Part shown: one piece after another, positions 19,932-26,063 of the stretch | Layout: the number at the start of each line of letters is the position of its first letter | Numbering within the stretch: position 1 is the first letter of the stretch | Assembly: GCA_028285755.1 (NCBI GenBank) | Contig: JANQOQ010000006.1 | Coordinates: 558,001-622,000 of the forward strand | DNA length: 64,000 nt | Direction of reading: 5' to 3' | Source of the DNA: Puniceicoccaceae bacterium | Lineage (GTDB): Bacteria; Verrucomicrobiota; Verrucomicrobiia; Opitutales; JAFGAQ01 | Translations under genes and position numbers: made by a program | The notes under the pieces: generated by a model | Databases searched by the model: none | What the model saw: only the letters and a program-made list of their open reading frames with translations | Told to the model about the DNA's origin: nothing

Positions 19932-20000
19932 TTCGTGGAGCAAATTAGGCTTCAATTTTGTGAATAATGCAACCTTGCAACACTGAGTGACGTCTATGAA

Positions 20001-20006
20001 TATAAT
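20001..20006 (+). promoter_or_regulatory. Perfect -10 hexamer before the AsmA-like gene
   Basis: TATAAT at 20001-20006, 20 bases before the chosen ATG at 20026. The best -35 candidate, TTGCAA (19975-19980), is 20 bases away, longer than ideal. The 94-base divergent gap also serves the minus-strand M20 gene. Confidence 0.4.
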
Positions 20007-20025
20007 AACCATATCCAATTGCATT

Positions 20026-20805
20026 ATGAAACTCATCAAAATCCTGCTTATATTTGCCGTGCTGATCGTTATCGCACTGACAGTCGTCTACTTCTCACTG
20101 GGTGGTATTGTAAAAAAATCAGTCGAGACTGCGGGTCCGGAACTACTCGGAGTACCTGTGACCACAGAAGCAGTGCAAATCGATCCGGCGAGCACTGCCT
20201 TCAAGCTAAATGATCTCCTCATAGGTAATCCGGAAAAATACACTCAGGAACATGCTTTTAAGATGGACACCTTTGCCCTGGACGTAGAACCCATGTCCCT
20301 GTTATCGGACACCGTGCATGTGGAAGCATTAGTGATCGACGGGGCCAGTCTCGTGATCGAAGGTCTGCAGGCAGATAATCACCGGGATATTATCAAAAAT
20401 ATCCAGGAACGTCTCGGCGGCAGCGGAAAATCCTCTGAAGGTGGAGAATCTTCCGGCGGCGAAGATGAACCTGCGGAAGCGAAAAAGGTAATCGTGGACC
20501 TGTTCGCATTTACGAATAGCGAGCTGGTATTACTCGTGGATGGAACCGAGATTGCCCGTGTCGATTTTCCGGAAATCAAACTTGAGCAAATCGGCTCTAA
20601 AGGCTCAGGAGTAACGATAGCTGAGGCTGCCATGCAAATTTACAGTGCAATCATGACAGAAACTGCCGGTGTCCTCACAGCTGACCCGGAGATCTTAAAA
20701 AAGCTGGGAGATGCGAAACTCAATAACCTCGGGCTCCCATCGATAGAATCACTCAAGGAGATGGGTGAAGATACGCTCAACGCAATCGGTGACCTCTTTA
20801 AATAG
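20026..20805 (+). CDS. AsmA-like membrane-anchored periplasmic protein
   Basis: 259 aa from ATG 20026; 13 earlier codons from 19987 are rejected because the promoter-like TATAAT lies among them. An N-terminal anchor (residues 4-25) precedes a beta-rich segment with GGIVKKSVETAGPELLGVPV and FALDVEPMSLLSDTVHVEAL, the layout of the AsmA/TamB N-terminal domain. A Gly/Ser/Glu-rich linker follows (about 130-155), then a helical tail. AsmA-like proteins act in envelope lipid homeostasis. This one is short, so it may be a truncated relative. Its end overlaps the convergent rsmD by 8 bases. Confidence 0.65.
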   Translation: MKLIKILLIFAVLIVIALTVVYFSLGGIVKKSVETAGPELLGVPVTTEAVQIDPASTAFKLNDLLIGNPEKYTQEHAFKMDTFALDVEPMSLLSDTVHVEALVIDGASLVIEGLQADNHRDIIKNIQERLGGSGKSSEGGESSGGEDEPAEAKKVIVDLFAFTNSELVLLVDGTEIARVDFPEIKLEQIGSKGSGVTIAEAAMQIYSAIMTETAGVLTADPEILKKLGDAKLNNLGLPSIESLKEMGEDTLNAIGDLFK

Positions 20806-21985: not shown

Positions 21986-23467
21986 GTGAAATTTTACCGG
22001 CATTACCTATTCTTTATGGCATCGTTTGTGTGTTGTATGCAAGTGTACGCTATTCCCGATATGGATGAAAACATCTGGCCGGTTCGTGTGGATTGGGAGG
22101 AAAATAGTGAGGTGCAACGTACGCGCATCGCCGGCCCGTTCTATGAGCGAAACATCCAGGAAGATGAAACGTTTATTGCCCTCCGGCCCTTTACCCTCAG
22201 ACGTGAATATCACAGCGACCCAACAACCCAATACAGCGAGTCGTTTCTGTATCCTTTATACAAATACACTCAATATGAGGGCCATTCGTTTCGCACAATT
22301 TTTCAGCTAATCCGGTGGAAATCCATAGACAATGATACCTCTGAAACGATCGGTACTAATGAAGCAGAATCTTACCTGCGCGCCTTCGAGGTATTCCCCT
22401 TCTATTTCGATTATGAATACGCGAATCCGGATTATTCCTACCAGGGGCTTTTCCCTATCTACGGGACCGTGCGTAATCGCCTTTTTGTGGACCAGATCGA
22501 CTGGCGGTTATTCCCGCTATACGCAAAAGTGCAGGATGATGATGAAACCGCCAAATACTACATCTGGCCCTTTTTCAAGGATCTTGAAGGGCCAAAATCA
22601 AAGGGTTTTGGCATTTGGCCCCTTTACGGTAATTTTAGCCGGGAGAATGATTATCATCACCAGTATCTCTTGTGGCCTTTCATTTACCACAACCAGAACC
22701 ACTTAGACCGGGATATCCCGCAAACCAAAATTGGCATACTCCCGCTGTATCACGAAGAAACCCGTGAAGGCTACAAACAAAAGGATATTCTGTGGCCGTT
22801 CTTTGGCTATACATACAGCAACAACCCCTCCTACGATGAAAGCCGATTTCTTTGGCCATTTATCATACAACGTCGCGGACAGGATCGCTACCTCAATCAG
22901 TATGCACCCTTTTACAGCCATTCGATTAAGAATGGCACTGAATCCTACTGGTATTTATGGCCGATCTACAATTCCCGGGAATACGAGACTGAAGGGGTTC
23001 TTGTAAAACGCTGGAAGCTGCTCTACTTCCTCTACTGGCATATGAACCAGTACGAAGCCGCCCAACCGGATAATAAGATCGCCCAGAAAAGCCACTTTTG
23101 GCCGCTATACAGCTATCGCTCCGAGACGGATAAGGTGACCCAATTCCAACTACTCAGCCCACTGGAGCCACTTTTCCAGAACAATGAGGAGATCCGCAAG
23201 CTCTACTCACCGCTGCTTGCACTCTATCGTTATCAACACATCCATGAAGAGTCCAAGGACGTGGAATTCCTTTTCTCCCTGATCAACTACGAACGGCGCA
23301 CGAGCCATAAACGCTTTAACATTGGGCCATTGTTTGATTACAAATCGGGAGACGCCGTCAAAAAAGTAGATTTCCTGAAAGGATTATTCAGATACGAACG
23401 TTTTAATGATCGAAAAGAAACCACGTTTTTGTGGATTCGATTTACAAAAGACGAAAAAGAGGATTAA
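21986..23467 (+). CDS. Secreted WPF/FPLY tandem-repeat protein heading the Mla operon
   Basis: 493 aa from a GTG giving a signal peptide (MKFYRHYLFFMASFVCCMQVYA). The mature protein repeats an aromatic turn of pattern hydrophobic-W/F-P-hydrophobic-Y/F: VFPFYF, LFPIYG, LFPLYA, IWPFFK, IWPLYG, LWPFIY, ILPLYH, LWPFFG, LWPFII, YAPFYS, LWPIYN. The prolines fall at about residues 138, 157, 177, 195, 212, 231, 253, 271, 291, 308 and 326, so the period is 17-22 residues; further copies occur near 90 and 373. This predicts a regular beta structure, possibly a barrel or solenoid at the outer membrane. It lies 21 bases before mlaE, so it is probably part of the lipid-transport system. No named family recognised. 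Confidence 0.75.
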   Translation: MKFYRHYLFFMASFVCCMQVYAIPDMDENIWPVRVDWEENSEVQRTRIAGPFYERNIQEDETFIALRPFTLRREYHSDPTTQYSESFLYPLYKYTQYEGHSFRTIFQLIRWKSIDNDTSETIGTNEAESYLRAFEVFPFYFDYEYANPDYSYQGLFPIYGTVRNRLFVDQIDWRLFPLYAKVQDDDETAKYYIWPFFKDLEGPKSKGFGIWPLYGNFSRENDYHHQYLLWPFIYHNQNHLDRDIPQTKIGILPLYHEETREGYKQKDILWPFFGYTYSNNPSYDESRFLWPFIIQRRGQDRYLNQYAPFYSHSIKNGTESYWYLWPIYNSREYETEGVLVKRWKLLYFLYWHMNQYEAAQPDNKIAQKSHFWPLYSYRSETDKVTQFQLLSPLEPLFQNNEEIRKLYSPLLALYRYQHIHEESKDVEFLFSLINYERRTSHKRFNIGPLFDYKSGDAVKKVDFLKGLFRYERFNDRKETTFLWIRFTKDEKED

Positions 23468-23488
23468 ACTCAGTTATAAACCACCTCA

Positions 23489-24256
23489 ATGAATCTATTG
23501 CTCAACAATCCAATCGCTAATTTCTTCGATAAGGTCGGTCAGCACTTATTGCTTCTTTGGAATTCGCTCGGGTATGCTCACGTTATTTTCACGCAGCCCC
23601 CGCGGGTCATTGAGCAATGTTACATCATGGGTTATCGCAGCCTGCCGATCATCTCCATTTTGAGCTTTTTCATAGGTGCGGTTTTAGCGCTGCAAGCGGG
23701 TTTTGTACTCTCGCAATTAAGTGTTCTCGAGTATATCGGGAGTTTTGTAGGGCTTTCCAGTGCACGTGAGCTAGCACCCGTTATGGTCGCTTTTCTGCTC
23801 GCAGGACGTGTGGGCTCAGCGATTACTGCGGAGCTCGCATCCATGAAGGTTTACAGCGAAATCGATGCATTGCACATCATGAATGTATCTCCCGAGAAGA
23901 TACTGGTCATGCCCAGGCTCTGGGCCGCTATCGTTCTGATGCCGTTCTTATCGATCATTGCGATACTAGTGTGTTGGCTGGGAGGCGCGATCATAGCTGA
24001 GTTTATCGGGTTTATACAACTCTCACCTCAAATCTACTGGCGTAACCTACAGGACTTCATCGTATGGAAGGATGTTGCTGACGGTATGGTCAAGGCCTGG
24101 GTATTCGGGTTTGCGGTGGTATTGATCGCCTGTAATCAGGGGCTAACAACTACTGGGGGCCCCCGGGAAATCGGAAATTCGGTAACCAAGTCAGTGGTTA
24201 ATTCGATGATCTTCATTCTTTTCACCAACTTTTTCATCACCCGCGCTCAAATGTAA
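23489..24256 (+). CDS. mlaE: MlaE-type ABC transporter permease
   Basis: 255 aa, five to six hydrophobic helices. Family segments: LPIISILSFFIGAVLALQAG, ARELAPVMVAFLLAGRVGSA (the conserved coupling helix region) and IYWRNLQDFIVWKDVADGMV. It forms the inner membrane channel of the MCE lipid transporter that moves phospholipid between inner and outer membrane. Followed 5 bases later by the ATPase gene and then the MCE protein gene, the classic E-F-D order. mlaB and mlaC are not present. Confidence 0.94.
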   Translation: MNLLLNNPIANFFDKVGQHLLLLWNSLGYAHVIFTQPPRVIEQCYIMGYRSLPIISILSFFIGAVLALQAGFVLSQLSVLEYIGSFVGLSSARELAPVMVAFLLAGRVGSAITAELASMKVYSEIDALHIMNVSPEKILVMPRLWAAIVLMPFLSIIAILVCWLGGAIIAEFIGFIQLSPQIYWRNLQDFIVWKDVADGMVKAWVFGFAVVLIACNQGLTTTGGPREIGNSVTKSVVNSMIFILFTNFFITRAQM

Positions 24257-24261
24257 CGACT

Positions 24262-25074
24262 ATGGGAGAAAGCAAACAGGCCAGACTAAGAAGGAATATT
24301 CTCCATAGAGATACCGATGTCCGGATCGACATTGAGAGTGTTTCTGTGAGTTTCGGTGAGCAATCCGTAGTGCGTGATATCAATATAGCCATCGAGCCCG
24401 GCGAGATCTTCGTGATCATGGGAGCCAGCGGCGCCGGAAAGTCTGTATTGCTTAAGTGTATTGCCGGGCTATTAAAGCCCAATCTCGGCATCGTTAAGAT
24501 TAACGGGATGGATGCCTCTGAGCGCGAGACCCACCATGAGATAAACTCAACACTCGTTTTTCAGGCGGGGGCTCTCTTCAACAGCCTGACGGTCTTTGAC
24601 AACCTGGCTTTCTTCCCGCGAGAGCATAAGCTTTATAAGGAGTCAGAGATCAAGGAAAAGGTCCTTGAGACCCTGCGGATACTATCCCTGGATCATGCTG
24701 CCTACAAGATCCCAGCTGAGCTGAGCGGGGGCATGCGCAAGCGCGTGGCAATCGCCCGTGCACTCATGTGCGAGGCGGATATGATCATGTATGATGAGCC
24801 GACCTCCGAGCTAGACCCGATTATGGCATCAACAATCAGCGAGATCATAGCCAATGTGCGCAACCAGTTTGGGCTTACCAGCGTGGTCGTTTCGCATGAC
24901 CGAGACCTCGCCTATGGCATCGCTGACCGCGTAGCCATCATCCATAAAGGCGAACTCCTCGCAGTAGACAGTCCCGAAAACATCCAAAAAGACCCGAATC
25001 CTTTAGTTCAGGATTTCCTGAACCCTACCATCAATATTGATGATCCCAGATTTAAAAAACTAGAAACCACATGA
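24262..25074 (+). CDS. mlaF: MlaF-type ABC transporter ATPase
   Basis: 270 aa. Walker A GASGAGKSVLL, Q-loop LVFQAGALFNSLTVFDN (the Mla-type Q loop), signature LSGGMRKRVAIARAL, Walker B MIMYDEPTSELDP and switch His VVVSHD are all intact. It powers the MlaE permease from the cytoplasmic side. A 25-residue basic N-terminal extension (MGESKQARLRRNILHR) precedes the usual start of the family. Its stop overlaps the mlaD start (ATGA). Confidence 0.95.
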   Translation: MGESKQARLRRNILHRDTDVRIDIESVSVSFGEQSVVRDINIAIEPGEIFVIMGASGAGKSVLLKCIAGLLKPNLGIVKINGMDASERETHHEINSTLVFQAGALFNSLTVFDNLAFFPREHKLYKESEIKEKVLETLRILSLDHAAYKIPAELSGGMRKRVAIARALMCEADMIMYDEPTSELDPIMASTISEIIANVRNQFGLTSVVVSHDRDLAYGIADRVAIIHKGELLAVDSPENIQKDPNPLVQDFLNPTINIDDPRFKKLETT

Positions 25075-26063
25075 ATAAGACACAGACTATCAGCATCGGA
25101 CTTTTCTTTATCGTTGGGGCATTCCTGATATGGATTGTTTTCAACGCACTCAGCGAAGAATCGGTTAGCCAGACGGATGGATACGAAGTAACTGCCGTTT
25201 TTGATACCTTGCTCCAACTACGAGTCGGTGATGACGTGCGCATGGCCGGAGTGCGTGTAGGGAGTGTGCAGAGTGTCGCCCTGGTCGATCGACAGCCCAC
25301 CGCAATCTTCAAAATCTTTGAGGAATTTCAAATCCCTGCGGACTCTTCAGCAACGATAGCAATGGCTGGACTATTGGGGAACAATTTGGTATCCATCAAT
25401 ATGGGTAACTCGAATACTTATCTGAGTGATGGTGACTTAATCCGTACGGAAGCCGGCTTTAACATAAGTGCGGTTGTTAATGAGATCGGTAACCTCAGTC
25501 AAAACGCAGGTATCGCATTTGAAAATATCAGTGAGTTTCTCGGCTCAGATGCGGACGGTGAAGCCAGCCTATTTGATAATTTCAATGCCATCCTTATCGA
25601 AAACAAGGATCCTCTCGGGCAAACCATTTCAAACCTCGAATCCATCACCGCACAGATGCAATCCGGCGAGGGCACACTCGGGCGTTTGCTCATGGATGAC
25701 AGTATTTACAACAAGTTGGAAGTGGCTACGACTGAAATACAAAACACCCTGGCAGAGGCCGAGGCTCTCTTCAGTGAAACCCGCGAGATCGTCGCCCAAG
25801 TCCAATCGGGTGAAGGAACGCTCGGTGGTCTCATTTACGGAGAGTCGGATATTGCAGCAGAAGTGGAGCTGCTCATCGCCAATTTACAGGAATTTTCAGC
25901 GAATTTAAATAATCCCGATTCGACGATCGGTAGGTTGCTCAATGATGATCAGCTCTATGATGAAGTGCAGGGCCTGATGCGTAAAGCCAACCAAACGCTC
26001 GACGGTCTCGGTGAAAGCGCCCCCATCAGTGCAGTGGGTGCTGCAGCAAACGGGCTATTTTAG
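25071..26063 (+). CDS. mlaD: MCE-domain lipid-binding protein (MlaD type) with C-terminal repeats
   Basis: 330 aa. Signal-anchor helix at about 7-27, then one MCE domain (about 37-125; VGDDVRMAGVRVGSVQSVAL and MAGLLGNNLVSINMG). The tail is helical and longer than in E. coli MlaD. It carries three related segments: SGEGTLGRLLMDDSIY (198-213), SGEGTLGGLIYGESDI (246-261) and NPDSTIGRLLNDDQLY (281-296). Such tails can form a tube crossing the periplasm. It should bind lipid and link MlaE to an outer membrane partner. It ends 4 bases into the convergent phoD gene. Confidence 0.93.
   Translation: MNKTQTISIGLFFIVGAFLIWIVFNALSEESVSQTDGYEVTAVFDTLLQLRVGDDVRMAGVRVGSVQSVALVDRQPTAIFKIFEEFQIPADSSATIAMAGLLGNNLVSINMGNSNTYLSDGDLIRTEAGFNISAVVNEIGNLSQNAGIAFENISEFLGSDADGEASLFDNFNAILIENKDPLGQTISNLESITAQMQSGEGTLGRLLMDDSIYNKLEVATTEIQNTLAEAEALFSETREIVAQVQSGEGTLGGLIYGESDIAAEVELLIANLQEFSANLNNPDSTIGRLLNDDQLYDEVQGLMRKANQTLDGLGESAPISAVGAAANGLF

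Follow-up and report, generated by a model that had tools for sequence, protein, structure and literature searches.

A repeat-protein family encoded ahead of mlaE in Verrucomicrobiota as a candidate envelope partner of MlaEFD

How might an MlaEFD lipid transporter be connected to the outer membrane in a bacterium that encodes neither MlaA nor MlaC? This question is raised by a locus of a Puniceicoccaceae bacterium (Verrucomicrobiota, order Opitutales), lying in a 64,000-nucleotide stretch of contig JANQOQ010000006.1 (positions 558,001 to 622,000; 'the window'), in which the gene for a proline-turn repeat protein, here called the WPF protein, stands directly ahead of mlaE, mlaF and mlaD. MlaEFD is a widespread core in most diderms, while MlaA and MlaC occur mainly in Proteobacteria and MlaABC is reported as a later addition; the possibility of unidentified proteins has been raised (PMC10665443). 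The WPF protein offers a specific, conserved candidate answer to this question, and is inversely distributed to MlaA. Because its gene precedes those of MlaEFD, mostly where MlaA and MlaC are missing, we regard it as a strong candidate for an alternative link between MlaEFD and the outer membrane. If this proposal is correct, the WPF system would represent another solution for moving phospholipids across the envelope.

Gene linkage and distribution of the WPF family

The WPF gene and the three genes that follow it share a strand and nearly touch: 21 bp and then 5 bp separate the first three, and the last two overlap by 4 bp. The first of these intervals is the 21-base spacing before mlaE given in the original prediction. 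A permease, an ATPase and an MCE protein are all present (Table 1), which confirms mlaE-mlaF-mlaD as an MlaEFD/MCE lipid ABC transporter. MlaE also matches TIGR00056 (213.3 bits against a cut-off of 212.2) and the PF02470 match of MlaD exceeds its cut-off, while MlaF, at 168.5 bits, falls below the cut-off of the MlaF equivalog model. The earlier statement that MlaA and MlaC are not encoded here extends beyond the window, as neither MlaA (PF04333) nor MlaC (PF05494) had a match in the whole source genome (97% complete) in searches for which E. coli and Caulobacter controls were positive.

Linkage to mlaE is a property of the family. An mlaE gene lies directly downstream of WPF, on the same strand, in 29 of the first 30 homologous Opitutales loci, and downstream in 79 of 80 named Opitutales loci that came from scanning bacterial genomes, with mlaF and mlaD mostly within the fetched stretch; some genomes contributed to both sets, which therefore overlap. 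The same scan, from which the best 80 matches were kept, was the only means by which the family was sought beyond Verrucomicrobiota. Elsewhere in this phylum, the order WPF-mlaE-mlaF-mlaD recurs in 33 of 39 more distant loci, chosen down the score list and not at random, and the linkage persists at 30-35% identity. The pairing suggested in the original prediction is thus found across Verrucomicrobiota, and WPF is seldom encountered away from mlaE. Of seven genomes with an unlinked copy whose mlaE loci were retrieved, six carry an mlaE operon that the MlaE tree places within the WPF-linked clades; the seventh, G510, has only contig-end fragments and a different mlaE type. It could be argued from the six distant copies and the one Opitutales locus not beside mlaE that WPF is a neighbour gene with no functional connection to the transporter, but retention of the linkage at such low identity and the inverse distribution with MlaA make this explanation very unlikely. 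No divergent WPF gene was seen upstream of mlaE in 20 loci of genomes without a match. Three mlaE-mlaF-mlaD operons (L191, L192, L193) have no WPF gene upstream and no MlaA match in the genome.

A profile search detected the WPF family in 182 of 387 Verrucomicrobiota genomes. WPF without MlaA was found in 158 genomes and MlaA without WPF in 128, with both in 24 and neither in 77; among genomes of the order that have mlaE, the corresponding numbers are 36, 19, 1 and 6. Families f13 and f21 each contain both states, indicating that the pattern does not reflect one deep split. A similar, weaker trend was seen for MlaC, with 9 of 47 MlaC-containing genomes also having WPF. Opitutales without WPF carry mlaE-mlaF-mlaD-mlaC-mlaA in a row (as read in L185) or, in other cases, MlaC and MlaA matches near mlaE, and their MlaD is about 147-150 aa long, whereas MlaD encoded beside WPF has a median length of 328 aa. 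Within the order, WPF is correlated with long MlaD. One genome (G360) has both systems, a short MlaD beside MlaC/MlaA and a long MlaD beside WPF, and its two mlaE genes fall in different clades of the MlaE tree. The genes linked to MlaC/A make up a single clade of seven in this tree, while the WPF-linked genes form two strong clades of 15 and 37 rows, unlinked genes included, whose joining the tree leaves unresolved. Other classes of Verrucomicrobiota contain a possible MlaA-lipase-like fusion: a 737-aa protein (L205:3050-5263, +) has an MlaA domain at residues 114-300 and a C-terminal half without a Pfam match that bears a GYSLGG motif as in alpha/beta-hydrolases, and similarly long frames (600-880 aa) are present in many genomes of the phylum.

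Repeats, predicted fold and export

The motif [WFLYIA]P[FLIVW][FYWIL] occurs 13 times in the WPF protein, whereas 20,000 shuffles gave a mean of 1.0 and a maximum of 6. All eleven prolines originally named are present, but the repeat is not confined to them: x-Pro-hydrophobic-aromatic turns span the entire protein as about 22 short repeats, spaced by 17-22 residues (about 19) with the consensus L-W-P-[LF]-[FY]. Across 73 homologues (the window protein and 72 others, 30-49% identical to it), 18-19 prolines are conserved from residue 32 to 448 (32, 51, 68, 90, 138 ... 326, 373, 392, 409, 448), most of them invariant or nearly so. The window protein matched nothing in Pfam (checked to E <= 1) or NCBIfam, the 73 homologues gave nothing above noise in Pfam, and neither the single protein (best E 0.38) nor the family profile found a relative in a PDB sequence search. 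A tblastn search of a plasmid collection gave no match, and no description of the protein was found in the open-access papers searched. The WPF system is, in these terms, a known transporter core joined to a previously unnamed partner family. Four of the 73 homologues match the NCBIfam LA_1737 family (NF047486, a Leptospira locus-tag name; best E 7e-5). We did not accept this kinship as more than a lead: on rescanning, two members scored 13-14 bits (cut-off 60) in a match of about 35 residues, the window protein did not match, and no paper on the family was found.

An AlphaFold2 model based on the alignment of the 73 homologues (mean predicted local distance difference test score, pLDDT, 92; predicted template modelling score 0.81) has 45 short strands with a median length of 6 residues, and all 19 conserved prolines lie outside the strands. 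The central 210-residue piece folds alike by itself (pLDDT 95.6). The WPF protein is thus predicted to be a free-standing, MORN-like sheet of about 22 antiparallel beta-hairpins. Hydrophobic residues cluster in the turn motif while the strand bodies are polar and charged, so that the model suggests a sheet that is soluble except at a hydrophobic edge. The best structural matches of the central piece were the CPAP G-box (TCP10 domain; Z 10.9), MORN1 (Z about 10), junctophilin and Borrelia OspA (Z about 8); the full model matches OspA and, weakly and in architecture, the ApoB beta-belt, and the top match in a viral structure library was a MORN repeat protein with a low TM-score. MORN proteins such as MORN1 and junctophilin, to which VIA-align matches the central piece at Z about 8-10, may have in common with the WPF model the tandem beta-hairpins, 6-residue strands and open sheet. 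They differ in that the MORN repeat is defined as 23 residues with GxG and YEGEW motifs (PMC7725318), against about 19 residues and a Trp-Pro turn in WPF, and in that WPF is predicted to be exported; the MORN profile matched none of the 73 members at E <= 0.1. The CPAP G-box and OspA, although also free-standing antiparallel sheets, have no sequence relation to WPF and superimpose with a high root-mean-square deviation (rmsd), a likeness of architecture only. Similarly, the MORN1 match has an rmsd of about 10 and is below the tool's level for repeats. Given the high rmsd values and the tool's warning on repeats, we interpret these likenesses as a type of architecture and not as homology.

An integral outer-membrane beta-barrel, the counterpart of OmpC or of the Veillonella barrel, might be expected of an exported, aromatic-rich, all-beta protein, and the full model has weak matches to porins and LptD. 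Membrane-spanning strands, however, have at least about 9 residues with alternating hydrophobic side chains, and those of the WPF model do not: they are shorter, their bodies are polar and charged, the hydrophobicity is at the turns and the best matches are open sheets. On this predicted model we rejected the barrel, which we regard as barely credible.

The signal-peptide-like start of the window protein (Table 1) includes a helix at residues 5-17 of the model. Most homologues have a cleavable-type signal and at least five distant ones a lipobox (L146, L152, L167, L168, L180) in which the +2 residue is not Asp, signals and lipoboxes being judged by eye and with a simple pattern. By the E. coli rule, such a +2 residue is compatible with an outer-membrane lipoprotein. 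The N-termini, resembling signal peptides or lipoboxes, give no indication of a cytoplasmic location, and we predict from them that the WPF protein is exported and, in some lineages, lipid-anchored. One lipobox homologue (LTGC; L168:4783-6573, +) is unlinked and adjoins a phosphoglucosamine-mutase-like gene, not mlaE.

Possible roles in the envelope

Like the canonical Mla system (E. coli MlaFEDB, MlaC and MlaA-OmpC), the WPF system combines an MlaE permease, an ABC ATPase and an MCE-domain MlaD in one operon. It differs in the absence of MlaA and MlaC from the source genome, in an MlaD of 330 aa that is not short and in the extra repeat protein, predicted to be exported, that leads the operon. 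With the three-component transenvelope Mla of Veillonella parvula (PMC10665443) it shares MlaEFD, a long MlaD and the lack of MlaA/MlaC, but in that organism MlaD itself carries the outer-membrane element, as a C-terminal barrel, and tolC/tamB come next, whereas here a separate protein accompanies MlaEFD.

We consider it somewhat probable that WPF is the dedicated envelope part of a distinct WPF-MlaEFD system with a long MlaD, performing the job of MlaC/MlaA by handing phospholipid between MlaD and the outer membrane. In such a system, the WPF protein would complete the route by linking the outer membrane to the extension of the long MlaD, which would project into the periplasm; the aromatic edge of the WPF protein may contact lipid or membrane, and the protein would take part in the phospholipid hand-off. 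The continuous Leu-Trp-Pro-(Leu/Phe)-(Phe/Tyr) turn edge is the likely lipid- or membrane-contacting surface. We infer the outer-membrane end, the localisation of the WPF protein, its contact with lipid and the direction of transport. We counted in favour of this reading that PVC MlaD has been reported without a bridging barrel (PMC10665443). As for the distinct lipid-transport assembly and outer membrane partner of the original prediction, a dedicated MlaEFD partner with a secretion signal, in a genome lacking MlaA/MlaC, is supported; placement at the outer membrane is a presumption, the model disfavours an integral barrel, and an 'outer membrane partner' is one reading among several.

Several observations weigh against the hand-off role. 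The Fisher values for WPF and MlaA (2e-24 for the 387 genomes and 7e-10 for genomes of the order with mlaE) ignore relatedness, and the 24 genomes with both proteins and the 77 with neither, by the profiles used, do not follow the inverse pattern. Some other Verrucomicrobiota have a long MlaD but no WPF, which indicates that WPF is not the sole solution in the phylum. Finally, the predicted fold is MORN-like, and MORN1 has been concluded to be a protein-interaction module without vesicle binding (PMC7725318). This last point, together with the polar strand bodies, would suit a role as scaffold or spacer: a rigid rod in the periplasm that does not itself handle lipid and either holds or sheathes the MlaD extension or anchors it to the outer membrane or peptidoglycan. 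Retention of a hydrophobic aromatic edge at nearly every repeat exceeds the need of a pure spacer, although it may just pack the sheet, and we regard this alternative as possible but unlikely.

Alternatively, the WPF rod may itself be a bridge that spans the periplasm and on which lipids slide, following a hydrophobic edge or groove; such a mechanism has been proposed for other bridge-like proteins. TbMORN1(2-15) dimers are about 25 nm long (PMC7725318), or roughly 0.9 nm per repeat, from which about 22 WPF hairpins (45 strands) would reach some 20 nm. This estimated length, the hydrophobic turn edge and the weak likeness in architecture to the ApoB beta-belt are consistent with a bridge. Against it, no AsmA-clan match, as expected of AsmA-like bridges (AsmA, YhdP, TamB), was found in the window protein (E <= 1) or the 73 members, and the long MlaD may itself form a conduit; we find the bridge improbable. 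In its boldest form, the proposal would place WPF in a class of its own among bridge-like lipid-transport proteins: a single-layer beta-hairpin rod would span the periplasm, carry phospholipid on its aromatic edge between the outer membrane and an MlaEFD with long MlaD, and take the place of MlaC/MlaA across much of Verrucomicrobiota. In our view this is doubtful.

Annotated features and neighbouring genes

Table 1. Coordinates of the WPF-mlaEFD operon and of parts of the WPF gene in the window
Feature	Position	Strand	Description	Basis
WPF protein gene	21986..23467	+	GTG start, 493 aa; first in apparent operon	open reading frame and translation
Signal-peptide-like start	21986..22051	+	residues 1-22 (...FFMASFVCCMQVYA; ends ...MQVYA)	read by eye from translation
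Most regular repeat part	22373..22993	+	residues 130-336, eleven x-Pro-hydrophobic-aromatic turns	motif count; piece folded alone
mlaE	23489..24256	+	MlaE-family permease, 255 aa	PF02405 5.5e-71
mlaF	24262..25074	+	ABC ATPase, 270 aa	PF00005 (ABC_tran) 1.9e-33
mlaD	25071..26063	+	single MCE domain, long C-terminal extension, 330 aa	PF02470 3.1e-15, residues 36-112

The window also encodes, 1.2 kb upstream of the operon, a short AsmA/DUF748-like protein of 272 aa (19987-20805, +), whose match of 5.8e-13 is slightly under the Pfam cut-off and whose family is linked to phospholipid transport. Outside the window, a frame of about 550 aa on contig 15 of the source genome (G000, 467720-468766) has three MCE matches and is PqiB-like, indicating that this genome has a second MCE system.
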